IMG/VR virus record: IMGVR_UViG_3300025430_001071
Span: 1-46,420 of that record
Reading direction: 5' to 3' (one strand)
DNA: 46,420 nucleotides
Source of the DNA: a virus
The notes under the pieces were generated by a model that saw only the letters and a program-made list of their open reading frames with translations, was not told the origin of the DNA and did not search any database. The position numbers and the translations under genes were made by a program. Of the stretch, positions 19,829-44,014 are shown in pieces (position 1 is the first letter of the stretch; the number at the start of each line of letters is the position of its first letter).

Positions 19829-19864
19829 GTGGGTTCTTTTAGGCGGAGTCGAAGTGTCGTCCGG

Positions 19865-19872
19865 CATAAATA
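19865..19872 (+). promoter_or_regulatory. Late-promoter-like motif CATAAATA
   Basis: Five bases before the preferred homing-endonuclease ATG at 19878. Could give a near-leaderless late transcript of the endonuclease, as T4 homing genes are often expressed late, or be fortuitous. Confidence 0.4.
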
Positions 19873-19877
19873 CATTT

Positions 19878-25636: not shown

Positions 25637-26041
25637 ATGTCAGGTAAAATAACATTAATCACACCACCCGATATCTATGAGAACGGCAATCACAGTACTT
25701 TGTTTATTCATCCCAGTGATGAAGAACAGGATGTAATTAGCCAGTGGTTGGGAAAATCTGGATTGAAAAATGATTTAAACTTCTATATCTTTTCAGGAGA
25801 AAATAATGTTAGTTGGTTTCTTTATGCGCTGAGTCGTTGTGAGCATAAGTATATTAATATAGATTGTTACAACTCTATTACACAAGCATTAGGTGGATAT
25901 ATTTTAGGCAAGAACAATGTTTACTATACAACCATCGATGAAAATCTTGCCGCAGTATATAGTCATATCAATCACAATAGAATAGAAAACGTAACAAAAT
26001 TTCTGGAGACAACATTTAGTGACCAAGCAACACCAACATAA
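25637..26041 (+). CDS. Phage protein of 134 residues, unknown
   Basis: Begins MSGKITLITPPDIYENGNHS, with alternating strands and helices (HKYINIDCYNSITQALGGYIL). I associate the LITPPDIYEN start with a conserved protein of T4-like aquatic phages; function unknown. It overlaps the start of clpX by 23 bases, so the two are coupled. Confidence 0.75.
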   Translation: MSGKITLITPPDIYENGNHSTLFIHPSDEEQDVISQWLGKSGLKNDLNFYIFSGENNVSWFLYALSRCEHKYINIDCYNSITQALGGYILGKNNVYYTTIDENLAAVYSHINHNRIENVTKFLETTFSDQATPT

Positions 26042-27245
26042 TCATAGCTGTGATTTCTGCGGCAAATCAAAAGAAGATGTTGAAAAATTAATAGTAGGTG
26101 AACATAGCGCAATATGTAATGATTGTATTGATCTATGTGTTAACATACTAAATGACGAAAAAACCACAACTGTACAGCATACCAATTTATTAAACCCATC
26201 CTTGATCAAAGATTATTTGGATGAATATGTAATTGGACAGGATGAAGCAAAAATCGTTCTCAGTGTGGCAGTCAGTCAACATTTTAAACGTATCAATAAT
26301 CCCAGCAAGGACGTCAAATTAGAAAAGACCAACGTATTATTACTTGGCCCCACAGGCTGCGGTAAAACCATGATGGCCCGTAAAATTGCTGAGTATTTAG
26401 ATTTGCCATTTGCTATCTGTGATGCCACTAGTATTACTGAAGCAGGCTACGTAGGTGATGATGTGGAAAGTATCCTATTAAGATTGATCAATGAAGCTGA
26501 CGGGGATATGGAAAAAGCATCACGTGGCATTGTCTATATTGATGAAATTGACAAAATAGCACGTAAAGGTGAAAGTGCCAGTATCAGTAGAGACGTCAGT
26601 GGTGAAGGTGTACAACAAGCCCTACTCAAAATGATTGAAGGCAGTATCATGCGAGTTCCGTTCAGTGGAAAACGTAAACATCCTGGTAGCGATATGCAGG
26701 AAATTGATACCAGCAGTATTCTGTTTATTTGTGGCGGCGCATTTGTTGGATTGGAAAAACTTATTGAAAGACGTACCAATAGTCGTACCATAGGATTCCA
26801 GGCTGTCAGCGCAGACAAACAGGATTTAGAAAATATCTATCGATTGACCACTAACAAGGATCTTATACAGTTTGGACTCATCCCAGAGTTTGTAGGACGA
26901 TTTGGATTAATAACCAATGTTGATGAGTTAACTGTGGATCAACTAGTACAGGTATTGAAAGAACCAAAAAATAGTCTTGTAAGGCAATATCAATATATCT
27001 TTAAGTTGGATGGTATCGATTTAGAATTTGACAACGATGCTCTACAACTTGTGGCCGAACAAGCCAAGGAACTCAAAACCAATGCTCGTGGATTAAAAAA
27101 TATTATTGAAAAGACTCTATTACCTTATCAATTTGGTGCTGTAGATTTAGTAGCAAGAGGTTTAACCAAAATTGTGATAAGTAAAAATACCATTGCTGAT
27201 AACGAACCAGCCTTGATGATTTTTGATAAGAAAGTAAATGAGTAA
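26019..27245 (+). CDS. clpX: ClpX ATP-dependent unfoldase
   Basis: A 408-residue AAA+ protein complete from the zinc domain to sensor 2. C11/C14 and C33/C36 form the N-terminal zinc-binding domain; GPTGCGKT (110-117) is Walker A; EAGYVGDD (143-146) is the substrate-gripping pore loop; IVYIDEID (171-178) is Walker B; GKRKH (RKH loop, 219-221) reads substrate tags; TIGF (IGF, 258-260) is the loop that docks ClpP; NARGLK is sensor 2. With the IGF loop kept, it can pair with host ClpP, since no clpP is seen here. The start is a GTG with GGAG 12 bases upstream, needed to include the zinc cysteines. It shares a short overlap with bS21. Confidence 0.95.
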
Positions 27246-28442: not shown

Positions 28443-28862
28443 TTACTTAAACCAGCCTAGCTTTTCGCCAGCTTCTTTACGGCGTTCGGCTTCTGCTCTG
28501 CTACCTGGTAATCTGCTGGCCCATAATATAATCAAGGCAAAGAATATGCTTAATCCCAAGCACAATTTCCAATTGCCAGTACGCCAGTAGATTAGGATCA
28601 AACTAAAGTCCATACTTAAAAACATGGCCCATTTAGCCAATGTTGGAAATACTCTACCCTCTTTCCAATTTCGAATAAAAGGTCCAAACAGTTTGTGGTT
28701 CAACATGTAATTGTGAAAGCGTTCACTGCTCTTGCTGAAACACCAAGTAGCAACTAGCGCAGGTGTTGACCAAGGTAACCCTGGTATAATCGTTCCCAAG
28801 TATGCTACTCCTAGGAATATGATACCCAGTGTAAACCAAAATGCTTTTTTAATTTTTTCCAT
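28443..28862 (-). CDS. DUF454 (YbaN-like) inner-membrane protein
   Basis: The 139-residue protein has four hydrophobic segments and the family pattern: LGIIFLGVAYLGTIIPGLPWSTPAL, then CFSKSSERFHNYMLNHKLFGP and NWKEGRVFPTLAKW. The P-G-L-P-x-x-P-F/A-L and F-x-W/Y-L-x-x-H elements mark DUF454. Function of the family is unclear; it is found near heme genes in some bacteria. It overlaps hemA by 14 bases and is translated after it, so a link to ALA or heme handling is plausible. Confidence 0.82.
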   Translation of the reverse strand: MEKIKKAFWFTLGIIFLGVAYLGTIIPGLPWSTPALVATWCFSKSSERFHNYMLNHKLFGPFIRNWKEGRVFPTLAKWAMFLSMDFSLILIYWRTGNWKLCLGLSIFFALIILWASRLPGSRAEAERRKEAGEKLGWFK

Positions 28863-30060
28863 TTAATGCCTCCTTTAGGCTTTCTGTTAAGTAAAATATA
28901 TCCGACTCTGTATGGTTAGGAGTAGGAGTACAGCGTAGTCGTTCGGTGCCCCACGGCACTGTGGGATAATTTATAGGCTGTAGATAAATTCCCTTTTCTT
29001 CTAATAACCAATCACTGATTGATTTACATTTTTTAGCATCACGAATCATTACAGGCACAATGTGTCCATTTTCGCTTAGGGGATTGACTTCTAATCCTGC
29101 GGCTTTGAAATGCTCCCGTGTAGACTCGGCCACTGACATAATTTTAGTTCTTAGTTCGGGATGATCTTGAACATATTTCACACTGGCCAATGCGCCAGCA
29201 CATAGCACAGGACTCATGCTAGTGCTAAAAATAAATCCATCAGCATAACTTCTTACCATGTCGACCAAATCACGACTGCCCGCAATGTAACCGCCTTGTA
29301 CTCCAAATGCCTTGGCCAGTGTGCCTTGTATAATATCCACACCGTCTACACATTTTTGTTCTTCAGCAACACCTGCTCCACGTGGTCCGTATAATCCCAC
29401 AGCATGAACTTCATCCACGTAGACCATGGCCCCATACATACGAGCAATTTCGCAGACATCACTGATTATGCCTCGATCACCATCCATACTATAAACACCC
29501 TCTAGAGCGATGATTGGTTGACAATCGTCGTCTAAACTCTGTAATATTTCTTTTAAGTGATCCAGATCATTATGACGCCAAACAGTGCGTGGGACTTTGC
29601 TGGATTTGATTCCCACAATCATACTGTTATGATTATGTCGATCGCTGATATAATGTATGTTTGGCAGTAGACGCCCTAGCACACTCAGTGTGGCTTGATT
29701 GGCCACATAACCGCTGGTAAAAGTCAATGCTGATGTTTTATCATGTAGTTTGGCCAGTTCCTGTTCTAAGGCCACATGATAATGTGTGGTACCACTGATA
29801 TTTCGTGTACCGCCAGCACCAGCACCTGCGGTGTCTAATGCTGTGTACATAGCATCAATAACAACCTTGTGTTGTCCCATGCCCAAATAGTCATTACTAC
29901 ACCAATTGATAATCTTTTTGATGTTGTATTTTCCGTACCAAATCGCATGGGGGAAATCACCTTTTTGGCGTAGTATGTCCGTGAATACCCTGTAATTACC
30001 CTCGCTTCGTAGCTTTTCCAAACTTTGGGCGATAGTGTCTTGTGTTTTTGGTTTGATCAT
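28849..30060 (-). CDS. hemA: 5-Aminolevulinate synthase (C4 pathway)
   Basis: A 403-residue PLP enzyme that condenses glycine and succinyl-CoA to 5-aminolevulinate, the first committed tetrapyrrole precursor. CSNDYLGMGQH, GAGGTRNISGTTHYH (the RNISGT typical of ALA synthase rather than BioF or Kbl), FTSGYVANQA, DEVHAVGLYG (PLP-binding Asp) and GTLAKAFGVQGGYIAG (PLP Lys) are all present. The ATG at 30060 starts MIKPKTQDT; an upstream in-frame start would add an unlikely hydrophobic stretch. A late-type motif lies just upstream. Most betaproteobacteria make ALA by the C5 route, so the gene may have come from an alphaproteobacterial lineage. It would raise heme supply for the heme oxygenase at 34222. 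Confidence 0.93.
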   Translation of the reverse strand: MIKPKTQDTIAQSLEKLRSEGNYRVFTDILRQKGDFPHAIWYGKYNIKKIINWCSNDYLGMGQHKVVIDAMYTALDTAGAGAGGTRNISGTTHYHVALEQELAKLHDKTSALTFTSGYVANQATLSVLGRLLPNIHYISDRHNHNSMIVGIKSSKVPRTVWRHNDLDHLKEILQSLDDDCQPIIALEGVYSMDGDRGIISDVCEIARMYGAMVYVDEVHAVGLYGPRGAGVAEEQKCVDGVDIIQGTLAKAFGVQGGYIAGSRDLVDMVRSYADGFIFSTSMSPVLCAGALASVKYVQDHPELRTKIMSVAESTREHFKAAGLEVNPLSENGHIVPVMIRDAKKCKSISDWLLEEKGIYLQPINYPTVPWGTERLRCTPTPNHTESDIFYLTESLKEALNGKN

Positions 30061-30068
30061 AATGTTAG

Positions 30069-30076
30069 TATTTATT
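30069..30076 (-). promoter_or_regulatory. Late-promoter-like motif AATAAATA (minus strand)
   Basis: On the minus strand AATAAATA ends 8 bases before the hemA ATG. It overlaps the -35 of the divergent host-type promoter on the plus strand. Confidence 0.45.
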
Positions 30077-30103
30077 GACAACGACTGTGTTAGAGTGTAT
30101 AAT
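30075..30103 (+). promoter_or_regulatory. Host-type promoter, TTGACA-17-TATAAT (consensus)
   Basis: Full consensus -35 and -10 with 17-base spacing, 27 bases before the next ATG. Drives the plus-strand run that starts with the small membrane protein. Confidence 0.88.
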
Positions 30104-30130
30104 ATAGTTTTGCAATAGAAAGAAATCACT

Positions 30131-30400
30131 ATGAAAATTTGGGCATTCGCCAAATGGCACTATAAAAAATTAGAGTTTTGGCAGAAATTCTTCCTTGTTG
30201 GATTCTTTGCCATGGGATGGGGGTTTGCTTCTCCCAGTCATTCTACTGAAGAATTTGTAGCATACATGGTAGCTTTGACTTCTATTAGTTGTGTATTTTT
30301 TAAATGGTTTATTTGGGAGCCAATGATAGATAGTTATAAAAAGTTTCAAAAAGAGCAATATGAGCTTTTTGAGACTATAAAACATTCGGATAAAAAATGA
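30131..30400 (+). CDS. Small membrane protein with two helices (89 residues)
   Basis: Residues 18-36 (WQKFFLVGFFAMGWGFASP) and 43-66 (AYMVALTSISCVFFKWFIW) are membrane helices, with a basic/charged C-terminal helix KKFQKEQYELFETIKHS. It overlaps the next gene by 4 bases. No family recognised. Strong host-type promoter suggests early expression. Confidence 0.72.
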   Translation: MKIWAFAKWHYKKLEFWQKFFLVGFFAMGWGFASPSHSTEEFVAYMVALTSISCVFFKWFIWEPMIDSYKKFQKEQYELFETIKHSDKK

Positions 30401-31209
30401 TAATACACTTTGTATCAGATCTACATTTAGACATCTCAGGTTACCTAGATCTCCCAGGTGGCGATGTGCTTATTTTAGCTGGCGATATCTGCGAAGCCAA
30501 AGAGCTACGCAAAGAGCATCATCAGACTAAAGTGTTAGATCGTGAACCAGGAGCTTTCCCCTGCTACGACTTTTTTAATTTTGTGGTTCCCAAATACAAA
30601 AAAGTATTCATGGTCATGGGCAATCATGAGCATTACAGAGGCCGCTTTGACAAGACCTATGACGAACTCAAGAGCCTGCTTCCCAGCAATGTGTCTCTGT
30701 TGGAGAGCGAAGTGGAAGAGTACGAGGGCGTCATGTTCATGGGGGCTACTTTGTGGACTGACCTCAACAAGGGTGATCCTATTACAGCATGGCATCTTAA
30801 GAGTTCAATGAACGACTACAAAGTTATTCAAAACTATTATCCTGCTAGATCGGTGTACCACAAGTTGACTCCAGAGCATACTGCTGAAGTACATTTTAAA
30901 ACCAAACAGTATTTTAGGATGATGCTGGAAGAACATCGTGACAAGCCCTTTGTGGTAATCACGCATCATGCTCCTAGTTTTCAAAGTGTCAACGAAAAAT
31001 TCAAGCATGATACCACAATGAACGGTGGGTATGCCAGCGACCTAAGCGAATTTGTTTTGGATCACGAAAACATCAAGGTATGGGTACATGGCCACATGCA
31101 TGATCCTGTTGACTATGTGATTGGCGGCACTCGTGTGGTCAGTAACCCAAGAGGTTATACACCTTGGGAAGGCGATCAGTTTGTGCCAGGTCAGTATGTT
31201 GAAGTATGA
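30397..31209 (+). CDS. Calcineurin-like metallophosphoesterase
   Basis: The 270-residue protein contains all motifs of the family in order: SDLHLD (DxH), LAGDICE (GD), MGNHEHY (GNHE), THHAPS (H) and VHGHMHDP (GHxH), which bind two metals. Such enzymes cleave phosphomono- or diesters; substrates range from nucleotides to DNA (SbcD-like) or RNA. Nothing here singles out the substrate. Coupled by overlaps to its neighbours. Confidence 0.9.
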   Translation: MIIHFVSDLHLDISGYLDLPGGDVLILAGDICEAKELRKEHHQTKVLDREPGAFPCYDFFNFVVPKYKKVFMVMGNHEHYRGRFDKTYDELKSLLPSNVSLLESEVEEYEGVMFMGATLWTDLNKGDPITAWHLKSSMNDYKVIQNYYPARSVYHKLTPEHTAEVHFKTKQYFRMMLEEHRDKPFVVITHHAPSFQSVNEKFKHDTTMNGGYASDLSEFVLDHENIKVWVHGHMHDPVDYVIGGTRVVSNPRGYTPWEGDQFVPGQYVEV

Positions 31210-31433
31210 TTGATTATACAGATCTAATGCCGTTGCCCTGCGGTGGCATTGCCTACTACGATGAACCCACGCATGGCATGAATTATTTTTGTGCCCAGTG
31301 TGAGTGTGTGGTAGGCAGTGATGCTATGCCAGAAAGATGTAAGCGTGAAGAAGCTAAATGGAATCTCATCAAACTGCTCGGCGGCAAGGGTTGGGATTAT
31401 TTTGCTGAAGTTGATTTTAATGATTGGAGTTAA
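31206..31433 (+). CDS. Small Cys-containing phage protein (75 residues)
   Basis: Begins MIDYTDLMPLPCGGIAYYDE and has FCAQCECVVGS, then RCKREEA; three to four Cys could bind zinc. Overlaps the phosphoesterase stop by 4 bases. Function unknown. Confidence 0.65.
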   Translation: MIDYTDLMPLPCGGIAYYDEPTHGMNYFCAQCECVVGSDAMPERCKREEAKWNLIKLLGGKGWDYFAEVDFNDWS

Positions 31434-31436
31434 AGT

Positions 31437-31691
31437 ATGAGTTCAACAGTGCGTATCCCTTGGAGTCGTGAACACGACAATGAACATAAGTGGAACGAAA
31501 TCTGCGCCCGCGCAATTGAAATGTTTGGATTGCCAGGGAATAGATTTACTACATTCTTGCATTCAGACTTCATGGATTTCATTTTTGAAAGTAATAAAGA
31601 CGCTCTTATGTTTGCCTTGGAGCATAATGGAGAATTTATTTCTGAACAACAATTGGCTATAGAATTAGTCAGCGGCTATGTATTCAAATGA
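31437..31691 (+). CDS. Tandem small paralogue 1 (84 residues)
   Basis: Reads WNEICARAIEMFGLPGNRF and then MDFIFESNKDALMFALEHNG. The W-x-E-x-x-x-x-A-x-x-x-F-G start and the F-E-S-x-x-D-x-L-M-F-A-L end match, loosely, the neighbours at 31962, 32201 and 32376, so it appears to belong to the same family. Function unknown. Coupled by ATGA to the next gene. Confidence 0.68.
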   Translation: MSSTVRIPWSREHDNEHKWNEICARAIEMFGLPGNRFTTFLHSDFMDFIFESNKDALMFALEHNGEFISEQQLAIELVSGYVFK

Positions 31692-31975
31692 GCCGAGCTG
31701 TCAAACTTACCAAACTACAGTGGAGTAAACTTCGGGCAAAGTTAAGCCAAGATTACCCACGAAGTGTCGTAATGGTACGTTGGAAGATGCGAGAAGTTTT
31801 GGGATTTGTTGATCGTGAACATGAAGAATGGGTTGACTATACGGATGACCCTATGAACATGGGGTGGGGCACCAAATCTAGAATCACCATGATACATTTG
31901 GATTTCTACGATGAACCTAAACGTACAATGTTTTTATTAAAGTATTCAGAGTATCTTCAAAATGATATTAGGTGA
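31688..31975 (+). CDS. Tandem small paralogue 2 (95 residues)
   Basis: Begins MSRAVKLTKLQWSKLRAKLS and ends LDFYDEPKRTMFLLKYSEY, sharing the aromatic-D-E-x-x-R-T-M-F-x-L-K-Y-S terminus of the family. The N-terminal half differs from the others. Function unknown. Overlaps the next gene by 14 bases. Confidence 0.68.
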   Translation: MSRAVKLTKLQWSKLRAKLSQDYPRSVVMVRWKMREVLGFVDREHEEWVDYTDDPMNMGWGTKSRITMIHLDFYDEPKRTMFLLKYSEYLQNDIR

Positions 31976-32201
31976 TGGCACAGTTTGTGGAGAAAGGTAC
32001 TACACGGTAAAGCCCATGTACTGGACTCAGTACGGTGACAATGTTCATTGGGATGAAATGATAACTTGGTGTGTTAGGGCATTTGGACCTACACCAAAAG
32101 ATGGTGTATGGACTCCCAATTCACGATGGTATGCAAATAACACACGACTTTGGTTTAAAAACGAAGCAGATAGGACCATGTTTATATTGAGATTTTCATA
32201 A
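31962..32201 (+). CDS. Tandem small paralogue 3 (79 residues)
   Basis: HWDEMITWCVRAFGP, SRWYANNTRLWFKNEADRT and MFILRFS at the very end give the clearest family pattern: W-D/E-x-x-x-x-W-C...F-G, then R-W-(Y/F), then F-K-N-E-x-D-x-T-M-F-I-L-R-x-S. Stop overlaps the next ATG by one base (TAATG). Function unknown. Confidence 0.7.
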   Translation: MILGDGTVCGERYYTVKPMYWTQYGDNVHWDEMITWCVRAFGPTPKDGVWTPNSRWYANNTRLWFKNEADRTMFILRFS

Positions 32202-32374
32202 TGAATATCATCCCTGAACATGAGTATCATATAGTAGAACTATATGAGTATCCACCCCCTAAAGTTATTGATTGGCTAGAGGAACGGTTCGCTGGCCAAT
32301 GGTTTTATAGAAGTCACAAGATTTATTTTGCTAACGCACAAGATCACATGATGTTTGTGTTAAAATGGAGTTGA
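32201..32374 (+). CDS. Tandem small paralogue 4 (57 residues)
   Basis: A short ATG frame: it begins MNIIPEHEYHIVELYEY, has VIDWLEERFAGQWFYRSHK and ends YFANAQDHMMFVLKWS. It is the shortest member and keeps the Q-W-F...I-Y-F...D-x-x-M-F-V-L-K-W-S core. It fills the gap exactly between its neighbours (one-base overlaps), which supports it being real. Confidence 0.7.
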   Translation: MNIIPEHEYHIVELYEYPPPKVIDWLEERFAGQWFYRSHKIYFANAQDHMMFVLKWS

Positions 32375-32375
32375 T

Positions 32376-32672
32376 ATGGCAACAATGATTAGTAGTGGTC
32401 CTGGCATTTCCAGTATTATTGGCGGATTAAACATTGGATCAGATCATGACCTGCGTCCAATGAAAACTGGCAAGGCCTCGGGGTGGGGTATAGAATATAA
32501 TTGGGTTGAAATTGCTCGAACAGAAAATACCCCAGAGGATATTAATAAGCAAGCTCAGGCCTGGTGCCGAGAAAGATTCGGAACATCTGCTACTCGATGG
32601 TTTGAGAAAAAAGACAAATTTTATTTCAAAAATGAAACAGATATGACAATGTTTATATTGAGGTGGTCATGA
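32376..32672 (+). CDS. Tandem small paralogue 5 (98 residues)
   Basis: The N-terminal 45 residues are specific to this copy; then AQAWCRERFGTSATRWFEKK and KFYFKNETDMTMFILRWS give the family core nearly identical to copy 3. Overlaps the next gene by 4 bases. Function unknown; the compact two-part fold with an aromatic C-terminus could mediate protein binding. Confidence 0.7.
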   Translation: MATMISSGPGISSIIGGLNIGSDHDLRPMKTGKASGWGIEYNWVEIARTENTPEDINKQAQAWCRERFGTSATRWFEKKDKFYFKNETDMTMFILRWS

Positions 32673-33037
32673 GCGAATTATTTTATCGTAGATTTGAAAT
32701 GCAGGTTAAACCCAGTATGCGAAAACTTCGCAGATTAAAACGTCGTGATTATAGGTATGATAAATGGGCATGGGAGATCAGTGATAACATGTTGTATCAA
32801 GATCATATTAACGTTGAAGAAGTAGATTGTGTGGATGTGGTTGTGCCTGCGGATCGTTTGAAAGAAATGGAAGAGCTCTTGACATTCTATGAAAAAATGG
32901 AACGAGAATGGCGTCACCACGATGATGTTGTTAATAGACTAAAGACAGAAAGCCTACAACGTATACGAAATCCTGTGGTTCAAAAGGCCTACGATCAATA
33001 TCAAACACTACTAAATTTGTGTTGGCAAAATGTTTAA
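32669..33037 (+). CDS. Charged helical phage protein (122 residues)
   Basis: Starts at the ATG overlapping the previous TGA. Strongly basic N-terminus (KPSMRKLRRLKRRDYRYDKW), then an acidic strand and a helical tail (KEMEELLTFYEKMEREW). It is not a clear member of the surrounding paralogue family. Overlaps the next gene by 8 bases. Function unknown. Confidence 0.68.
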   Translation: MSELFYRRFEMQVKPSMRKLRRLKRRDYRYDKWAWEISDNMLYQDHINVEEVDCVDVVVPADRLKEMEELLTFYEKMEREWRHHDDVVNRLKTESLQRIRNPVVQKAYDQYQTLLNLCWQNV

Positions 33038-33320
33038 AGGTAGAGGATTTGTTCAATTAACTGGCCGCAGGCCCTATGATGGTGTTGTACCTCCCTATAA
33101 ATCCATTATAAAATCCATGTTTGAAATTAGAGAACGTGCTGATGTGGATGGTGAAACTTGGTACACAGTCCAGGTCAATCCCCGGGTAACTTCTTGGATA
33201 ACAACTCAAGATCCCAGTTTATGGTATAGTCATAAAACCGCCAACAACTACAAGGTCGTAGATACCTATGACATTCATGAAAAATTGTACACAATGTTGG
33301 CCTTGAAATGGAGTAATTGA
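33030..33320 (+). CDS. Tandem small paralogue 6, divergent (96 residues)
   Basis: N-terminal half is unique (RGFVQLTGRRPYDGVVPPYK); the C-terminal half reads SLWYSHKTANNYKVVDTYD and ends LYTMLALKWSN, keeping L-W-Y and the M-x-A-L-K-W-S ending of the family. Last gene of the run; a consensus host-type promoter begins right at its stop. Confidence 0.65.
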   Translation: MFKGRGFVQLTGRRPYDGVVPPYKSIIKSMFEIRERADVDGETWYTVQVNPRVTSWITTQDPSLWYSHKTANNYKVVDTYDIHEKLYTMLALKWSN

Positions 33321-33323
33321 CAA

Positions 33324-33357
33324 TTGACACCGATCATGTTTTCAAGTATAATAAATA
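33324..33357 (+). promoter_or_regulatory. Consensus host-type promoter overlapping a late motif
   Basis: TTGACA (33324-33329), 17 bases, TATAAT (33347-33352): a full consensus. A second TTGACA starts at 33317. AATAAATA (33350-33357) overlaps the -10, so hsp20 may be expressed in both early and late phases. The leader to the ATG is 77 bases. Confidence 0.85.
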
Positions 33358-33433
33358 AATGTGTAGTAGACCTAATGGCTATTACACCTGGGCATAGTGC
33401 CTAAGATTGTCTTACTTTATTAAGGAGAAAATT

Positions 33434-33874
33434 ATGACAAATCATCAATTAGTTCGTTTTGACACCAACGCTCTTAACCGAGCACTTCTAGGATTTGACA
33501 GTTTGTTTGATAACTTTGAACAACGCTTCGCAAATCAAATTAACAACACTTATCCGCCATACAATGTTATCAAGCATGACGAAGATACTTACGAGATCGA
33601 AGTTGCTGTGACTGGTTTTGACAAGGATGAAGTCACTGTTGAAATTGACCAAAATCAATTGATTGTCAAGGGTCAGCGTAAGGAAGTCGAGTTAAACGAA
33701 CCAACCTACCTACATCGTGGGCTTGCTAGCCGTGACTTTACTCGTTCATGGACACTAGCAGAACACATGGAAGTTCGTGATGGTTCTATCAAAAATGGTG
33801 TTCTCACCATTGGACTAAAACGTGTGGTTCCAGAAGCCTTGAAGCCACGTGTTCTTAAACTAACGGCTGAGTAA
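33434..33874 (+). CDS. hsp20: Small heat shock protein, Hsp20/IbpA type
   Basis: The 146-residue protein contains an alpha-crystallin domain: PPYNVIKHDEDTYEIEVAVTGF, DEVTVEIDQNQLIVKGQR, FTRSWTLAEHMEV and SIKNGVLTIGLKRVVPEA (the GVLTI strand end), with a short N-terminal FDSLFDNFE segment. It holds unfolding proteins for refolding. Hsp20 genes are also known from T4-like cyanophages. ATG at 33434 follows AAGGAGAAAATT. It stands as a single-gene unit before a terminator, next to clpS. Confidence 0.92.
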   Translation: MTNHQLVRFDTNALNRALLGFDSLFDNFEQRFANQINNTYPPYNVIKHDEDTYEIEVAVTGFDKDEVTVEIDQNQLIVKGQRKEVELNEPTYLHRGLASRDFTRSWTLAEHMEVRDGSIKNGVLTIGLKRVVPEALKPRVLKLTAE

Positions 33875-33879
33875 GCCAG

Positions 33880-33906
33880 TGGGGGAGCCCTTTCCTCCCC
33901 CATTTT
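33880..33906 (+). terminator. Rho-independent terminator after hsp20
   Basis: TGGGGGAG/CTCCCCCA, 8-bp GC-rich stem with a 7-base loop, followed by TTTT. Confidence 0.82.
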
Positions 33907-33919
33907 AATAGAAAATACT

Positions 33920-34225
33920 ATGACTACAGATACGATTATTGAAGAAAAAACAGTTACTAACAAACGAATCAAAATGCCTAAAAAATACAAGGTTTTGGTT
34001 CTTAATGATGACTATACTCCTATGGAGTTTGTAGTTGAAATGTTTTCTTATGTTTTTAGAAAATCAAGTCACGAGGCAGTGGCATTGACAATGAAAATTC
34101 ATACTGAAGGACAAGCAGTGGCTGGAATTTACACCCACGAAATCGCTGAACAAAAAGTCATCGAAGGTACTGAAATGGCACGTGCTCACGGCCATCCACT
34201 TATATTAAAAGCAGAACAAGAATGA
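33920..34225 (+). CDS. clpS: ClpS adaptor protein
   Basis: A 101-residue protein with the ClpS core: YKVLVLNDDYTPMEFVVEMF, then HEAVALTMKIHTEGQAVAGI and YTHEIAEQKV, ending HPLILKAEQE. The NDDYTPMEFV segment and the His/Met pocket residues match the fold that binds N-end-rule substrates and the ClpA N-domain. A basic 20-residue N-terminal tail is present, as needed for ClpA delivery. ClpS normally works with ClpA, not ClpX; no clpA is seen here, so it would act on host ClpAP. Overlaps heme oxygenase by ATGA. Confidence 0.93.
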   Translation: MTTDTIIEEKTVTNKRIKMPKKYKVLVLNDDYTPMEFVVEMFSYVFRKSSHEAVALTMKIHTEGQAVAGIYTHEIAEQKVIEGTEMARAHGHPLILKAEQE

Positions 34226-34761
34226 GTCTAAAAGAACTAACCAGAGATAAACACGCTGCCGCTGAAGGCACAAGATTTATGAAAGCAGTGTTTGATCAAA
34301 CATTGCCCATGTCGCTTTGGATTGATTATACCTACCAAAAACATCTATGGTATAGAGAAATTGAGACCCAAGCCAAAAAGTTTGGACTGATAGATGGTTT
34401 ACCAGGCATTGAACGAGCCGACCTAATTGCCAAAGATTATAAAGAGATGATGACAGGTAAACTATCTGAATATCATGTCTATAAAGAAATTACCAAGGAC
34501 TACGTTTCCTATATTCGTAAATTAGATGATCCACAACGTGTATTGGCACACCTGTATACTTGGCACATGGGAGACCTGTTTGGCGGGCAAATGATCAAAA
34601 AAATCATTGATGCGCCACACAGTCATTTAGATTTTGAAAATGCCAAGGATCTTATGTTTGTACTACGTGGTATGTTAGACGACAGCATGGCCGATGAAGC
34701 TAATGTGGCCTTTGATTGGGCTATCAAAATACTGGGTGAGTACGATGCCAGTTTGGGATAA
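34222..34761 (+). CDS. ho: Heme oxygenase
   Basis: A 179-residue all-helical enzyme that opens heme to biliverdin IX-alpha, CO and iron. LTRDKHAAAEGTRFM carries the proximal heme ligand H11, and HMGDLFGGQMIKK the distal helix with the flexible glycines (GDLFGGQ). Length is slightly short compared with cyanobacterial HO1 (about 240), as in phage versions. It overlaps the bilin reductase gene, so its product biliverdin is presumably used directly. Ferredoxin must come from the host. Confidence 0.92.
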   Translation: MSLKELTRDKHAAAEGTRFMKAVFDQTLPMSLWIDYTYQKHLWYREIETQAKKFGLIDGLPGIERADLIAKDYKEMMTGKLSEYHVYKEITKDYVSYIRKLDDPQRVLAHLYTWHMGDLFGGQMIKKIIDAPHSHLDFENAKDLMFVLRGMLDDSMADEANVAFDWAIKILGEYDASLG

Positions 34762-35413
34762 GATAGAAAAATTAGCTGATCACTTTGAACAGGTGATTGC
34801 TCAGTCAGCTGACACTGTTCAGGGTGTGGGCGGAGATTATTCGGATTGGCATAATATGCTGTATAGCAGTCCTAGGTATCGCAGGGCACATATCGAGATA
34901 GTGGACAAGCGTGACAGTCATGGTATGTACATACTACATACTACCATATTCCCACACTTCAATGACCCTAGTCCTATATTTGGATTTGATGCTGTTTGTG
35001 GCAAGAATAAAATAACCGGTGCTTTCCATGATTATAGCCATGCTGGAGATCCAAACAGCTTTATGTATCTGTGGTTTAAAGCCAAGGTAAACGGGCTCGA
35101 ATGGAATAAACCCCGACAACTTCCTGAATGGGCACAACAAATCTTTAGCCCTTCCATGGTGGCCGCCGGGAATCTACAAGAAGAAGCAGAAGTAGATCAA
35201 CTGTGCGAAATAGCAAAAGCCACCCTAGATTTTTATCTTGCCAATGTAGGCATAGATCAACAAAGTCTGGCAGACTATCATATGGCACAGAATCGTTACT
35301 GCCATTGGCAAAAGAAAAACCCACAGGTTATACGCAGTATGGTCTCCATGGGAGTGCCAGAAGATACAATGAATCGGTTTGTCAGTGAAGTTCTGTTTCC
35401 CGAAGTAGTATAA
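34745..35413 (+). CDS. Ferredoxin-dependent bilin reductase (PcyA/PebS/PcyX family)
   Basis: A 222-residue protein with the family core HTTIFPHFNDPSPIFGFD (D82, the catalytic Asp equivalent) and CGKNKITGAFHDYSHAG, matching the PIFGFD-x-V-x-G-K-x-K-x-T-G-A-F-x-D pattern of phycobilin-forming reductases. These reduce biliverdin to phycocyanobilin or phycoerythrobilin. The ATG at 34745 lies within the end of the heme oxygenase gene (17-base overlap). Whether it makes a two- or four-electron product cannot be read off; the phage branch PcyX, which makes phycoerythrobilin, is the closest idea. The protein is small for the family but has the whole fold. Confidence 0.88.
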   Translation: MPVWDKIEKLADHFEQVIAQSADTVQGVGGDYSDWHNMLYSSPRYRRAHIEIVDKRDSHGMYILHTTIFPHFNDPSPIFGFDAVCGKNKITGAFHDYSHAGDPNSFMYLWFKAKVNGLEWNKPRQLPEWAQQIFSPSMVAAGNLQEEAEVDQLCEIAKATLDFYLANVGIDQQSLADYHMAQNRYCHWQKKNPQVIRSMVSMGVPEDTMNRFVSEVLFPEVV

Positions 35414-37276: not shown

Positions 37277-37786
37277 ATGAAAAAGTTCATATTTTCATTA
37301 ATCGCGACATTATCAATGGTTTCTGCTCACGCAGAAATCGCACAACAATTTAAAGATCCCACATTCTCAGGCAATGGATGGGCTCAACAACAGCTAACAA
37401 TTATACAAATGGAGCAAAGCGCCAAGGCAGCTATTGCTTCAAAAGAAGCTGCCGCTGTGAGTGCTGCCAATGCCGCTGCCGCACAGACTCCTATAGCACA
37501 GTTCATGAGTCTGTTTACTAGTCAAGTATACAGTCAACTAGCAACACAGCTAACCAACAATTTATTTTCCAGTTGTACTAGCGCAAATGGCGCGGCAATT
37601 CCAGGATGTAATCCAGCAACAACTGGTACTTTTAATATCAATCCAACCACCACAGTGAGTTGGTTTAAAACCGTTAACGACCCCAATTTCAAGGGACAGA
37701 GTAGTGTTACTCTTACTGTAAAGAACACAGCTGATCCAAGTCAGAACACCAGTGTTACTGTTCCAATCAGTCAATTTTCATTCTAA
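37277..37786 (+). CDS. csgF: CsgF-like curli assembly protein
   Basis: The 169-residue exported protein (signal peptide MKKFIFSLIATLSMVSAHA) begins its mature part with AQQFKDPTFSGNGWAQQQLT, matching the QFxNPxFGGN start of CsgF, the region that plugs into the CsgG pore. The C-terminal strands (VTLTVKNTADPSQNTSVTV) end in ISQFSF, as in CsgF. An Ala-rich helix fills the middle. In curli systems CsgF caps the outer side of CsgG and helps nucleate fibres. ACGGAGGAACG precedes the ATG; csgG starts 8 bases after the stop. Confidence 0.85.
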   Translation: MKKFIFSLIATLSMVSAHAEIAQQFKDPTFSGNGWAQQQLTIIQMEQSAKAAIASKEAAAVSAANAAAAQTPIAQFMSLFTSQVYSQLATQLTNNLFSSCTSANGAAIPGCNPATTGTFNINPTTTVSWFKTVNDPNFKGQSSVTLTVKNTADPSQNTSVTVPISQFSF

Positions 37787-37794
37787 GGTGACAA

Positions 37795-38898
37795 ATGAAA
37801 TTATTTAAATTAACACTAATTGCTTTGACCGTAGCCCTAATGGCAGGTTGTAGCACAATACGTCCCATGGGCGAAGTAAAAATATCAGATCAACCAGAAA
37901 TTGTTAAAAATCAAGCTAGAGATTTTGAGTCTGTACCCAGTCCAGATGGTCCTCCAGTGGCAGTGGCAGTTTACAGTTTTAAAGATCTAACAGGACAACG
38001 TAAAAATAGTGCTACATTGAGTTTATTCTCAACAGCGGTTACACAAGGTGCTGAAGCATATCTTATTAAATCTTTGATAGAAGTAGGCAATCGTCAGTGG
38101 TTCACTGTTGTTGAACGTACTAATTTAGACGACTTGTTGAAAGAACGTCAAATGATCAAACAAACTCGTGAGATCTATGAAGGTGCTAAAGCAAGATTAC
38201 TTCCACCAATGACCATGGCTGGTGTTATCCTTGAAGGCGGCATTATTGATTATAATACCAACGTGTTAACAGGTGGCACTGGTATAGCAATATTTGGCAT
38301 TGGCCCACAGACTCAATACACACAGGATCAAGTGGTAATTAGTCTACGCCTAGTAAGCGTACAAACTGGTGAAATATTGACCACAGTTACCGTACAAAAG
38401 AACCTATTGAGCACAGGGGAAGGCATCACTGCCATGAAGTTCTTTAATCAAGACACACAGGCATTTGAGTTAGATAGCAGTCAGAGTTTTAATGAACCAG
38501 GCAACTATGCTCTACGCAGTGCCATTGAACAGGGTGTAGTTGAATTAATTAAAAAGGGCGAGCGTCAAGGACTATGGAAATATAAAGGTGCTGACTTGCC
38601 CAAGGTAGAAGATCCTGTAGTAGAAACTACTCCAGCGACTGTGGTACCAGTAGAAGAACCCAAGAAAGAGGAAAGCAAGCCTGTGAGCTCGATCGCTCCA
38701 GAAACATTCGGAAAGTTAACAGCTTGGGCGAACATGAGAAAACATGAAGATTATAGCAGTGAGAAAATAACACTTCTTAAACCAGGCACACCTGTTAAAA
38801 TTATTGATCGAGGTGATCGCTTTAGCCTAATTGAAGTGGATAGCAAACGAGGTTGGATATACAACAACTTTATAACACAAGGAAACCAAAAGGGATAA
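37795..38898 (+). CDS. csgG: CsgG-like curli secretion channel with SH3-like extension
   Basis: A 367-residue lipoprotein: signal with lipobox LMAGC (C19). Residues 50-260 follow CsgG: VAVAVYSFKDLTGQRKNS, TAVTQGAEAYLIKSL, FTVVERTNLDDLLKERQMI, GVILEGGIIDYNTN, VVISLRLVSVQTGEIL, which build the nine-fold outer-membrane channel. A Pro/Glu linker (275-300) leads to an extra domain (WANMRKHEDYSSEKITLLKP ... RGWIYNNFI) with the pattern of a bacterial SH3 domain, not present in E. coli CsgG (277 residues). It forms the export pore for the curlin-like proteins that follow. Confidence 0.92.
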   Translation: MKLFKLTLIALTVALMAGCSTIRPMGEVKISDQPEIVKNQARDFESVPSPDGPPVAVAVYSFKDLTGQRKNSATLSLFSTAVTQGAEAYLIKSLIEVGNRQWFTVVERTNLDDLLKERQMIKQTREIYEGAKARLLPPMTMAGVILEGGIIDYNTNVLTGGTGIAIFGIGPQTQYTQDQVVISLRLVSVQTGEILTTVTVQKNLLSTGEGITAMKFFNQDTQAFELDSSQSFNEPGNYALRSAIEQGVVELIKKGERQGLWKYKGADLPKVEDPVVETTPATVVPVEEPKKEESKPVSSIAPETFGKLTAWANMRKHEDYSSEKITLLKPGTPVKIIDRGDRFSLIEVDSKRGWIYNNFITQGNQKG

Positions 38899-39731: not shown

Positions 39732-40925
39732 GTGAAGTTATGGCCTCTAATTTTTCTAGTGGCATTATCAGTAGCTCAGGCAGAGATTGGATCTGTAACT
39801 GAGCTAACTGGTAGCGCCACAATCAAGCGCGGTAGTAACACTGTCGCCATAGCCAAAGGCACCGCAATTGAAATTAATGACAAAGTCACGGCCCAAAACG
39901 GCGAAGTCAAAATAACCTTTAAAGATAATACCACAGTCAAAGTAACGGCCAGCAGTAGCATGGTGATAGATGACTTTGTGTACGATCCTAAAACACAGGG
40001 TGGCAAATTAGGCTTAAAAGCCACAGAAGGTACAGTACGCTATGTCAGCGGAAATATCGCACACAATAATCCCAACGCAGTAAACATCAAAACTCCCACA
40101 GCAGCCATTGCGGTACGTGGTACTGATTTTATCATGAGCAGTGATGAAACAGGTAAGAGCATGATAATTTTAATGCCATCATGTGAAGTAGAGCAAAATG
40201 TTAACCTAAAAGGTTTGACCTGTGGTAGTGGTAAAATTGATGTAAACAGTGGTGGGGAAATTATACACATGGATAAGCCATTTCAAGCCACAATGGTTGA
40301 AACAAATGGCACTGCGCCTAGTCCACCTGTAGTTGTTAATTTAAGCAATACCCCAATTGGCAATAACCTACATTTAAGTCCTCCCCAAACAATGAGTGGG
40401 CAGAGCATAGTCGCTGCCGCAAAAGCAGCCGCAGTCAAAACTGGTGATGCCAAAAAAGATGTTGCTAAAAAAGATGATACCGGTAAACAATCTAGCAGTG
40501 ATGCAGGTAATACGCCGCCTGCTGAAACACAAGCACAGGTAGTACAACAGCAACAGCAACGTCAACAACAGGCCGAAGCAGATCAACAGGCCGCGGCCCA
40601 AGCTGCCGCCTCTGCGTTACAACAAGCCGCAAAAGAACAAGCGGCTTTAGAAGCACAGGGCGTAACAGTTAATAGTACTCCTATTACTGATGCTAACGTG
40701 TTTGCTGTATTCCATAATAATGATCCCACACTAAATCAAATTGGCTGGGGCTATGCTAGTTTGAGTCCTAGTGGCAACAACTATGCCAATGTGTCGCTAC
40801 CCTTAAACAGTCAAGTACTTGTGGTAGTTACACAGGATCGTGTGACTGATGCTTATAACTTTGCTGGCGGCAACAACAAGCCACAGGGCAGTATCACTAT
40901 CACACAAACGTATAACACAAAATGA
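39732..40925 (+). CDS. Exported FecR-domain protein
   Basis: The 397-residue protein starts at GTG 39732 with a signal peptide (VKLWPLIFLVALSVAQA). Residues 18-180 form a FecR domain: TELTGSATIKRGSNTVAIAKG, NDKVTAQNGEVKITFKDNTT, and TPTAAIAVRGTDFIM. The middle is low complexity, Lys- then Gln/Ala-rich (coiled), and the C-terminus is a further beta-rich domain. FecR domains occur in signalling and in surface proteins that assemble with peptidoglycan or other partners. Standing between two curlin-repeat genes, it may help anchor or regulate fibre export. Coupled to the next gene by overlap. Confidence 0.8.
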   Translation: MKLWPLIFLVALSVAQAEIGSVTELTGSATIKRGSNTVAIAKGTAIEINDKVTAQNGEVKITFKDNTTVKVTASSSMVIDDFVYDPKTQGGKLGLKATEGTVRYVSGNIAHNNPNAVNIKTPTAAIAVRGTDFIMSSDETGKSMIILMPSCEVEQNVNLKGLTCGSGKIDVNSGGEIIHMDKPFQATMVETNGTAPSPPVVVNLSNTPIGNNLHLSPPQTMSGQSIVAAAKAAAVKTGDAKKDVAKKDDTGKQSSSDAGNTPPAETQAQVVQQQQQRQQQAEADQQAAAQAAASALQQAAKEQAALEAQGVTVNSTPITDANVFAVFHNNDPTLNQIGWGYASLSPSGNNYANVSLPLNSQVLVVVTQDRVTDAYNFAGGNNKPQGSITITQTYNTK

Positions 40926-43069
40926 AAAAGTTTTTATTCTGTTTGTTATTAATGATAACTTCAATGTTGGCAACGGCGCAGAACTTACCAGCTGGCTATA
41001 TTGGGGTATTGCCAAACGGCGCCGGCACTAACGGTTATCAAACATACACATACACCTTTACGCCTAATACATCTGGAGCTTGGTATATAGGGTTTGCATT
41101 TAGGCAAGATCCTGCTTATTGGAGTTTTGGTGCGGTCAGTGTAACAGCCGCTGGTTCGAGTACTAATTTAATACAAAATGGTAATATGCAGTATGGTGGG
41201 TCTACTACAGTAAACAATACCAACTATCAAGGACAAGTAACCACACCAGCAGACTGGGGGGTATGGTATCAAAATGGAACATATCCATCAGCCGCTGGAC
41301 AGTGGCAATGTTGTGGCGGACCTAGTGGTTCTAATGGCGGACAATGGTATGATGGTGCTGTGGGCAGTTATGATGGTATCTATCAAGCTATTAATGTAAC
41401 TGCCGGAGTTACATATACCGTTAGTTTCCAAGCATTGAGTACATCAGGTGCTGAAAATACTTCTAGTATAAGATTAGGCACTTATGCCGGGCAGTGTAAT
41501 TCTGGACAAAGTATCTTCACATGTACCCCACCTAGTTCATCGGGATTTAGCTCAATGTCAACTCCTTCTGATGGACAAGGAGTGGGTGGTGCTCCTCCTC
41601 CCTCTCCTCCGCCCCCAAGTAATGGCGGGGGAACAACCATTTCTGGTAACGGGTCGTCATCTGGATTGAGTGGTATTCAATTTGGCGCAAGTCAAGTGGC
41701 CGACACGCAATGGGATACTGGCAGTTGTTTGAGTTCTAACTCTTGTACTATATATAGTACTAGCCCAGGGATAACTTACGAAAGCGGCAGTCCTACTTAT
41801 ATCGGGTCAGGTCAATATATAGGATTCATACAAAATACAGGCAGTGATAGTTCTAGAAATCCTTGGACCATGATATTATATAATAGTGACGGTACTATTG
41901 CACAGACGTTAGGCACAGGACGTATTGTGGTAGAAGGCAGCGATAATACAGGGCGTAATTACTTTTTCTTTACCAACGATAATTATAATGGAACTCTACT
42001 AAGTGGCAATTTGGGATTGAGTGGGCAAGGTGTTACATTTTCAGGAACCCAAAATCCCACAATATCGCAGACAAATAGTTTTTCATCTAACTTTTCTTCA
42101 ACTCCATTGTCAGCAGGGCAAAGCGGAGGAGGAACTAATAATACTCCAACATTAGTGAGTTCAAGTACTACTAATCAAACTACTACATCATCCAGTACAG
42201 GCACTATAACTGGAGTAAATGATACCATACATTTGCCTAATATAGTGGTATCTGGAGTGAATACCAGCAATTATACATACTCTGTTGTAGGAGTTACTAC
42301 TCCCACAATAACTACAACTACGGTGACTCCTGTCACTACCAACACCTACAGTGATGGTAGCACCACAACTACCAACGGCACCCCTACATCAACACAGACT
42401 ACGACTTATACCTATAGTATAACGCCTGCTACTATCAATAATAGCATGACCAATCCCTATGCTGGTTCTACTACTAACGCTGTTTACATTAACCAAACTA
42501 GCGGAAGTTATAGCAACGTACTGACCGCTAGCCAATATGGACAGGGCAATTTAATCGAAATGTATGTTAACGGAGAAGGCAATAATCTAAACGCTGCACA
42601 AGGATACACCATCAATAGTTTGGGTGTTCCTAGCCAAAGCACAGCCAGCAATTCTAATACAGTAGGGATTACCATATTAGGAAATAATAATACAGTAACA
42701 ACACAGCAGATTGGCAATAATAATACTACCGTGGCCAGTATTACAGGTAATAGCAATCCTACAACTGTTGTACAAACAGGCAACAATAACCAAAGTTTTA
42801 ATCTAATCAATGGTGGCGGCAATGCGTTGACTGTAAGCCAAACTGGTAACAACAATGTAAGCAGTATAAATCTATATGGTGCTAGCAACGTGGCCAGTGT
42901 CACACAGAGCGGCTCTGCCCCAATGAGTTCATTGTTAAACCTAACCAATGCTGGTGGTGCTAATAATGTTAATGTGACGCAAACTGGTGCTACCAGTCAA
43001 AGTTACATACTACAACAAACTTGCTCAAACCCTGCTGGATGTAGCGTGTCAATACACCAAGGTAATTGA
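40922..43069 (+). CDS. Large exported adhesin-like protein with C-terminal curlin repeats
   Basis: The 715-residue protein has a signal peptide (MKKFLFCLLLMITSMLATAQ). Residues 20-200 form a beta-sandwich-like domain with LIQNGNMQYGG and YDGIYQAINVTAGVTYTVSF, the pattern of carbohydrate-binding or DUF642-like modules. A PPPSPPPP linker, a second beta domain and a Thr/Ser-rich stalk follow. The last 190 residues are curlin-like repeats (ITILGNNNTVTTQQIGNNN, TTVVQTGNNNQSFNL, LTVSQTGNNNVSSIN). The design suggests a fibre-tip or adhesive subunit exported through CsgG and joined to the amyloid by its C-terminal repeats. ATGA overlap with the FecR gene. Confidence 0.82.
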   Translation: MKKFLFCLLLMITSMLATAQNLPAGYIGVLPNGAGTNGYQTYTYTFTPNTSGAWYIGFAFRQDPAYWSFGAVSVTAAGSSTNLIQNGNMQYGGSTTVNNTNYQGQVTTPADWGVWYQNGTYPSAAGQWQCCGGPSGSNGGQWYDGAVGSYDGIYQAINVTAGVTYTVSFQALSTSGAENTSSIRLGTYAGQCNSGQSIFTCTPPSSSGFSSMSTPSDGQGVGGAPPPSPPPPSNGGGTTISGNGSSSGLSGIQFGASQVADTQWDTGSCLSSNSCTIYSTSPGITYESGSPTYIGSGQYIGFIQNTGSDSSRNPWTMILYNSDGTIAQTLGTGRIVVEGSDNTGRNYFFFTNDNYNGTLLSGNLGLSGQGVTFSGTQNPTISQTNSFSSNFSSTPLSAGQSGGGTNNTPTLVSSSTTNQTTTSSSTGTITGVNDTIHLPNIVVSGVNTSNYTYSVVGVTTPTITTTTVTPVTTNTYSDGSTTTTNGTPTSTQTTTYTYSITPATINNSMTNPYAGSTTNAVYINQTSGSYSNVLTASQYGQGNLIEMYVNGEGNNLNAAQGYTINSLGVPSQSTASNSNTVGITILGNNNTVTTQQIGNNNTTVASITGNSNPTTVVQTGNNNQSFNLINGGGNALTVSQTGNNNVSSINLYGASNVASVTQSGSAPMSSLLNLTNAGGANNVNVTQTGATSQSYILQQTCSNPAGCSVSIHQGN

Positions 43070-43130: not shown

Positions 43131-44014
43131 GTGAGTGTCATCATTATTACCAAACAAGCAGAAACTGATTACGAAACCAGCCGATTGCTAGAAAGTTTCG
43201 CCGCTAAGAGCATAGCGGTAAGAGTCTGTCACCCCGATGACTTTGACATCGTTGTAGATCGTGATATCCGTAAGGGCATCAAAACAAGGGCGAAGATGTT
43301 GAACTGCCCAAATTGGTATTGGTTAGATTGGGTGCTGGCATATTGCCGTTCCAATTGGCTGTACTTAGGCATTTTGAACAAGCAGGTGTAATTGTAATCA
43401 ACGGTAGCGCACCAATTGAAACTGCCAAAAACAAAATGATGACTAGCCAAATACTGAGTCGTGAAGGGATACCGATTCCCAAGACCATGATGGTACGTTT
43501 TCCCATACAGGAAAAACTTATTGCGGAAAATATTGGATATCCCTGTGTGGTTAAAGTAGTTACTGGCAGTTATGGTGCTGGTGTATATCTATGCGAAAAG
43601 AAGAAAGATTATAAGAAATTAGTGGAATTTATTGAGAGTTTAGGCAATAAAAAGACTCTTTTAGTCCAAGAATATCTAGGTGATCAGCCAGGGGAAGATC
43701 TACGTGTGCTAGTAATAGGCGGTAAGGTTGCAGGTGCTATGAAACGTACTGCTCCTGAGGGAGATTTCCGTGCCAACATCACTAATGGTGGTACTGGTCA
43801 AGGTTTTGAAGTTAGTCCTGAAATTGATTACATTGCCCGTGAAACTGCTCGTGCTTTGGGTTTAACCATAGCAGGTATTGACCTGTTGTTTGACAAACGT
43901 GGATTCCGTGTATGTGAGGCTAACAGTAATCCAGGGTTCAGCGGTTTTGAAAAATACTGCGGAGTTGATGTTGCCGATTTGATTACAGAATATATCAAAT
44001 ACAAAGTTCAATAA
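43131..44014 (+). pseudogene. RimK-like ATP-grasp ligase, interrupted by a frameshift
   Basis: Two frames together make one RimK-like protein. The first, from GTG 43131, reads MSVIIITKQAETDYETSRLL up to IRKGIK at 43283. The homologous sequence then continues in another frame as NKGEDVELPKLVLVRLGAGI, through NKMMTSQILSREGIPIPKTM, VVKVVTGSYGAGVYL (ATP-grasp loop), LVQEYLG, GDFRANITNGG and FRVCEANSNPGFSGFEK (metal-binding E-x-N) to 44014. The break is at an AAAA run at 43281-43284: one more A would restore a single frame of about 294 residues. RimK-type enzymes add glutamate to ribosomal protein S6 or make similar amide bonds. A real knockout, a programmed shift and a sequencing error are all possible; everything else is intact. 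Confidence 0.85.

Follow-up and report, generated by a model that had tools for sequence, protein, structure and literature searches.

Phage tetrapyrrole gene sets

The closest described relatives of the locus treated here are the phage gene sets reported by Wegner et al. in 2024 (PMC11480375). They combine an ALA synthase (valaS), a heme oxygenase (vhemO) and a bilin reductase (vpcyA/X), and they include a "broken cassette," in which hemO and pcyA/X lie together with alaS nearby. The ALA synthase of phage CB_2 rescues an ALA-auxotrophic Escherichia coli, the CB_2 heme oxygenase makes biliverdin, and the product of the CB_2 PcyA/X can supply phytochrome; the heme-feedback residues are lost in the phage ALA synthases (PMC11480375). 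The IMG/VR virus record IMGVR_UViG_3300025430_001071, analyzed here in its entire length of 46,420 bases (the window), contains the same three enzymes in the layout of the broken cassette and shares with those phages a changed heme-feedback residue in the ALA synthase. As the three-gene set is already known from PMC11480375, the window is a further member of the published kind.

Two other enzyme groups are close to the bilin reductase of the window. The marine-phage PcyX (PDB 5owg; Pelagibacter phage Mosig) has the same fold, also lies directly behind a heme oxygenase and shares the active-site His and Asp. The window enzyme differs from it by Glu51 in place of an Asp, by its identity of only 38% to 5owg and 33% to the Mosig protein, and by belonging to another clade. 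PcyA, known from cyanobacteria and from the alphaproteobacterial AX lineage, shares the fold and the Glu/His/Asp triad; however, the window reductase is only 26% identical to Synechocystis PcyA and misses the NCBIfam equivalog cut-off.

The three genes of the set are located in the window as follows:

28849..30060, minus strand: ALA synthase (ALAS), 403 aa, with the pyridoxal phosphate (PLP) lysine K250 (TIGR01821; PDB 2bwn)
34222..34761, plus strand: heme oxygenase (HO), 179 aa, with H11 and GDLFGGQ (PF01126; PDB heme oxygenases)
34745..35413, plus strand: ferredoxin-dependent bilin reductase (FDBR), 222 aa, Glu-type with a PcyA-like active site, E51/H65/D82 (PF05996; structure model)

A preliminary description of this DNA had named these three enzymes at these places, and the family scores given below bear it out. 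It had also noted that HO overlaps a reductase with the PIFGFD and GKNKITGAF core, which is correct: the genes overlap by 17 bases, and the likely ATG of the reductase at 34745 lies inside HO. The full ALAS, with its motifs, which it placed about 4 kb upstream on the other strand, is likewise present, the starts of ALAS and HO lying 4.2 kb apart on opposite strands. The novelty implied by that description does not hold, as the set and the activities of its enzymes were already reported in 2024 (PMC11480375). Family scores and relatives in independent metagenome contigs exclude a chance origin of the three genes. Our explanation, to which as a whole we assign a probability of about 0.68, is that the window comes, as a fragment, from a large freshwater phage and carries the known tetrapyrrole genes in the broken layout, in which a phycocyanobilin (PCB)-making reductase would complete a drain for heme.

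ALA synthase and heme oxygenase

The longest open reading frame (ORF) of the ALAS gene spans 28849-30153 (minus strand), with the likely ATG at 30060. The protein carries GGTRNISGTTHYH, and its PLP lysine K250 sits in GTLAKAFGV and aligns with the GTLAKA lysine of Rhodobacter capsulatus ALAS. It passes TIGR01821 (545.1 bits, cut-off 338.55), and its two closest solved structures are both of ALAS, namely 7x98 and the R. capsulatus enzyme 2bwn (417 bits for 2bwn). Related enzymes were rejected: 8-amino-7-oxononanoate synthase, raised as the alternative in the preliminary description, with 312.3 bits against the bioF cut-off of 426.45; glycine C-acetyltransferase (KBL; NF005394) with 310.4 bits against 460; and serine palmitoyltransferase, whose model score also lies under its cut-off. 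From its sequence, the gene is clearly an ALAS and is predicted to produce 5-aminolevulinic acid (5-ALA). Among 50,697 phage records, its best tblastn match reaches 36% identity and, where annotated, is named KBL or BioF. Opposite His342, the heme-feedback residue of R. capsulatus ALAS, the window enzyme has a Lys (counted on the alignment); because of this replacement, we may reasonably infer that the phage ALAS would lift the precursor limit.

HO passes PF01126 (Heme_oxygenase; 54.5 bits, cut-off 23) and matches heme oxygenases in the PDB. H11 and the stretch G117-D118-x-x-G121-G122, which reads GDLFGGQ in the window, are invariant in 14/14 aligned phage HOs. We take H11 to be the proximal His ligand and the Gly-rich stretch to be the distal helix.

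Bilin reductase and its likely product

The reductase passes PF05996 (Fe_bilin_red; 64.2 bits, cut-off 31) and contains both PIFGFD and GKNKITGAF. Its structure model, with a pLDDT of 93.6, matches the structures of PcyA, PcyX, PebA, PebB, PebS, and phytochromobilin synthase (Foldseek E values of 1.4e-12 to PcyA 2g18 and 7.3e-11 to PcyX 5owg). E51, H65, and D82 match all three residues of the PcyA triad Glu76, His88, and Asp105; herein, Glu51 replaces the Asp that is specific to PcyX (Asp55, at the PcyA Glu76 position).

A tree was built from 110 sequences after removal of identical ones, with PcyA, PebS, and PcyX references and with alphaproteobacterial PcyA left out. The window reductase falls outside the clade of PcyX 5owg. 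Its own clade of 43 members has Glu at the Glu76 position in 40 cases, His in two, Gln in one, and Asp in none, whereas the 53 members of the 5owg clade have Asp in 39 cases, Ser in ten, Asn in three, Cys in one, and Glu in none. Node supports are 0.63 for the window clade, 0.89 for the 5owg clade, and 0.997 for their union. The equivalents of His88 and Asp105 (H65 and D82 in the window) are retained in 109/110 and 110/110 sequences. The preliminary description had proposed to compare the reductase with PcyX, PebS, and PcyA by phylogeny; its place in the FDBR family stands by sequence, tree, and fold, whereas an assignment to PcyX is not supported in detail, given the Glu in place of Asp and the position outside the 5owg clade.

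One study describes PcyX as lacking Glu76 and suggests that this residue was acquired as PCB-making PcyA arose (PMC10151467). In addition, the PcyA/X of phage CB_2, which lacks the PcyX Asp, makes PCB (PMC11480375). For the window reductase, PCB is the likelier product compared with phycoerythrobilin (PEB), because a Glu occupies the PcyA Glu76 position and the sequence is placed outside the PcyX clade.

Other residues at the Glu76 position were seen as well: Lys in L084, L085, L353, and L043 (numbers are our own for loci; two bacterial bins and two viral contigs), and His or Cys in L035:9992-10660 and L037:9992-10660. A scan of genome contigs for bacterial hosts or donors of the reductase yielded only four loci, from assemblies titled bins or metagenome-assembled genomes. 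In Pelagibacter phage Mosig, a gene annotated as ferrochelatase lies near HO-PcyX (L080:4354-5124).

Relatives and tandem reductases

Two FDBR frames follow HO in six loci from five contigs. One contig was sampled twice (L033 and L356), and the reductases of L350 and L351 are identical, leaving four distinct cases. The tandem FDBR pairs are located as follows:

L033:9303-10657
L046:1668-3025
L050:739-2092
L350:4807-6188
L351:2757-4138

The gene order is the same in all four distinct cases (L033, L046, L050, and L350): HO is followed by an Asp-type reductase of the PcyX clade and then by a Glu-type reductase, the two partners being 38-44% identical within a locus. The terms "two FDBR" and "tandem" are absent from the main text of PMC11480375, as far as it was available. 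The triad that the preliminary description proposed to look for in relatives recurs in part: ALAS accompanies HO-FDBR in all five tandem-reductase contigs, but a search of 25 whole records, hand-picked mostly for length, detected ALAS in just nine of them and FDBR in 24.

Proposed working and alternative readings

In the proposed working, the phage ALAS would feed 5-ALA into the heme synthesis of the host, and host enzymes would convert it to heme. The phage HO, judged by its family, would then open part of this heme to biliverdin, iron, and CO. Finally, the reductase would carry out a four-electron reduction of biliverdin with host ferredoxin, most likely to PCB, as the observed Glu51 suggests. 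The electron donor would be that of the host since no Fer2 ferredoxin was found in 20 records (0/20; hand-picked, mostly for length). The benefit that we prefer is that the supply of heme and iron would stay open during infection, with surplus heme being drained to a harmless bilin.

Several points weigh against this explanation. The support of the window clade is modest (0.63), the NCBIfam PcyA equivalog PRK02816 scores 81.5 bits against a cut-off of 206, and the reductase is 38% identical to PcyX 5owg versus 26% to Synechocystis PcyA. Furthermore, it is costly in energy to build heme and break it down again, and a drain leaves the phages with HO-FDBR and without ALAS unexplained (9/25 versus 24/25 records).

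As to the benefit, two other readings are each improbable. According to one, the bilin would be a chromophore that alters the light signaling of the infected cell through a host phytochrome or a bilin-binding globin. The CB_2 phage HO and PcyA assembled a functional phytochrome on co-expression, and the same three genes adjoin a phytochrome gene in Bradyrhizobium ORS278 (PMC11480375); however, no phycobiliprotein match exceeded the Pfam cut-off in the 20 records mentioned (phytochrome domains were not searched for). A phage-borne bilin-binding protein was rejected as a candidate: the Phycobilisome matches in four of these 20 records are weak, under the cut-off, and inside frames of at least 756 aa.

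According to the other, which we hold to be about as doubtful, the main purpose would be the release of iron from heme, with the reductase merely clearing biliverdin. The presence of HO in all 42 FDBR-seeded loci is in line with this, and an iron role is discussed in PMC11480375. Yet new heme made through ALAS consumes iron first, which would leave ALAS-bearing phages without a net gain of iron unless they drew on old heme of the host.

As to the product, it is unlikely, and somewhat more so than the two readings above, that the reductase acts as a PcyX and makes PEB as in marine phages. PcyX 5owg is the best PDB sequence match of the reductase (152.9 bits versus 54.6 for PcyA). Against PEB stand the presence of Glu51 where PcyX has its Asp, the separation of the two clades into one without Asp and one without Glu, and the PCB made by a phage enzyme without the PcyX Asp (PMC11480375). 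The PCB-making heme drain is kept as the preferred explanation.

HSP20 and ClpS upstream of heme oxygenase

The neighbors of the set in the window, DUF454, HSP20, and ClpS, are unnamed in the main text of PMC11480375, as far as available. Two of them precede HO:

33434..33874, plus strand: HSP20 small heat shock protein, 146 aa (PF00011)
33920..34225, plus strand: ClpS protease adaptor, 101 aa (PF02617; N29, D30, H61)

The HSP20 is IbpA-like with a score under the equivalog cut-off. ClpS passes PF02617 (97.2 bits, cut-off 23) and overlaps the start of HO by 4 bases. N29, D30, and H61 are invariant in 16 phage ClpS; these Asn, Asp, and His residues presumably form the N-degron pocket.

Of the 42 loci found with FDBR as the seed, 35 have HSP20 and ClpS together with HO-FDBR. 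A ClpS alignment, which is a seed biased to HO loci, gave the order HSP20-ClpS-HO-FDBR in 75/80 loci (best 80 of 376). Four of the five exceptions, L243, L246, L254, and L259, are short loci that stop shortly past ClpS or HO; the fifth, L262, is a real one. There, at L262:4456-6443, HSP20-ClpS is followed by a GMP-reductase/IMPDH-like gene (named by eye) in the place of HO. With the L262 ClpS as the seed, the fetched flank of ClpS lacks HO in 47/80 loci and contains it in 33/80. ClpS also occurs in unrelated jumbo phages. It is likely that HSP20-ClpS is the older pair and that HO-FDBR was inserted behind it. Because HSP20-ClpS is also found without HO-FDBR, ClpS is probably not dedicated to the bilin pathway, and the idea of a dedicated pathway regulator is weakened by the second (L262) seed. 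No literature joining phage ClpS, auxiliary metabolic genes, and heme oxygenase was found.

That the phage ClpS directs host ClpAP to the ALA-forming enzyme of the host (glutamyl-tRNA reductase, GluTR, or ALAS) while the phage ALAS takes over is very unlikely: the overlap with HO, the place ahead of HO-FDBR in 75 of those best 80 loci, the retained pocket residues, and the fact that GluTR is a substrate of Clp in Salmonella and interacts with ClpS1 in plastids (PMC7966870) speak for it, but the 47 loci of the L262 seed, the GMP-reductase-like gene of L262 itself, and the jumbo-phage ClpS speak against it.

DUF454 next to tetrapyrrole genes

28443..28862, minus strand: DUF454 (YbaN-like) predicted inner-membrane protein, 139 aa (PF04304; ALAS pairing in relatives)

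To our knowledge, the DUF454 family has no known function. The window protein passes PF04304 (93.2 bits, cut-off 35.1) and stays under the cut-off of the NCBIfam YbaN equivalog PRK10527 (60.8 bits versus 163). Its model, with a pLDDT of 81, has no PDB match at E ≤ 0.001. The gene overlaps the 3' end of ALAS by 14 bases. Of the 36 ALAS-seeded loci, 26 have a same-strand DUF454 gene immediately after ALAS, and the spacing takes ten different values between -17 and 154 bases. DUF454 lies upstream in two other loci, 9 kb off in one, and was not found in seven, of which five end within ALAS and L071 ends soon after it. With DUF454 as the seed, ALAS is present in 36/80 loci (best 80 of 548). Against a DUF454-ALAS unit, neither FDBR nor ALAS was found in 16/16 further DUF454 contigs, which were searched whole (fragments of 15-99 kb, picked for having no nearby ALAS or FDBR); a strict tie of DUF454 to the phage pathway is thereby weakened.

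In bacteria, the pairing was followed in a set of 299 genomes, all from one phylum and chosen around a bin with the title Rhodobacteraceae; DUF454 occurs in 143 of them and HO in 45. At no fewer than 11 of 55 HO places, a same-strand DUF454 gene comes immediately after HO, whereas a rough uniform estimate predicts about 0.06 such cases; the figure of 11 is a minimum, the count covering the DUF454 places of HO-bearing genomes and the top of the list. These genomes (our own numbers) are:

G102, G066, G147, G256, G175, G070, G135, G298, G240, G206, G264, same strand: HO directly followed by DUF454

The 11 cases are not independent because several of the genomes look related. The four HO-linked DUF454 genes that could be placed are spread over two parts of the DUF454 tree, from which bacterial frames of more than 200 aa and duplicates were removed (110 to 93 in the duplicate step). 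These Pseudomonadota pairs resemble the window in having a same-strand DUF454 directly behind a tetrapyrrole gene. They differ in the partner, which is HO there and ALAS in the window, and the phage DUF454s form a clade of their own. In 58 sampled bacterial regions (two of 60, L144 and L149, were left out as they had no DUF454 ORF; genes were called by a longest-ORF rule), the direct neighbors of DUF454 are diverse, and HO makes up 3/116 neighbor ORFs.

Both HO and DUF454 are frequent near type 11 secretion genes (PMC12282271), and iron restriction raises a DUF454 gene (PMC7970244). No literature joining PA0673, PA0672, and heme oxygenase was found. Tentatively, and with more doubt than belief, ALAS and DUF454 may be a functional unit, in which DUF454 would be a membrane partner in the handling of porphyrin, 5-ALA, or heme, kept beside ALAS by phages and, independently, beside HO by some bacteria. 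In the working proposed above, such a partner may aid the handling of heme or porphyrin.

Phage type, host, and other genes of the window

A T4-type capsid (Gp23) match was found in 4/11 relative records and is strong only in contigs of 322-353 kb; FDBR is also present in a 364-kb relative contig. The window probably stems from a large T4-like phage, of which it would be a fragment, and the published freshwater set suggests a freshwater origin for it. A non-cyanobacterial host, as the preliminary description assumed, is plausible; Methylocystis and Methyloparacoccus are cited for two related phages (PMC11480375). Megablast of window bases 1-25000 against the 50,697 phage records returned no match, and no tRNA genes were found in the 46,420 bases. 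Other genes of the window are:

26019..27245, plus strand: ClpX-like unfoldase, 408 aa, a neighbor gene (NF003745, 531.5 bits, cut-off 359)
37277-37786, 37795-38898, and 40922-43069, plus strand: curli-like set with a weak CsgF (25.9 bits at a cut-off of 25.8)
43313-44014, plus strand: RimK-like ATP-grasp ligase
19854-20651, plus strand: homing endonuclease-like gene, a few kilobases beyond the genes for ribonucleotide reductase

A curli-like gene of the window is 43-44% identical to proteins of Methylophilales and Pelagibacter phages. The set includes a protein with a curlin repeat and a CsgG-like protein, the latter matching proteins of Methylophilales phage Melnitz and Pelagibacter phage HTVC008M that bear the name "curli production assembly/transport component."

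Implications

Beyond the available text of PMC11480375, the analysis adds the likely bilin product, the neighbor genes, and the spread of the gene set. The window is of value as a firmly anchored example of the freshwater branch with Glu-type reductases, which are likely to make PCB. From the Asp-type and Glu-type reductases that stand in tandem in four distinct relatives, one would expect phages producing two kinds of bilin, and the recurrence of DUF454 beside ALAS and beside HO suggests a role for this family, which is widespread in bacteria and has no assigned function.

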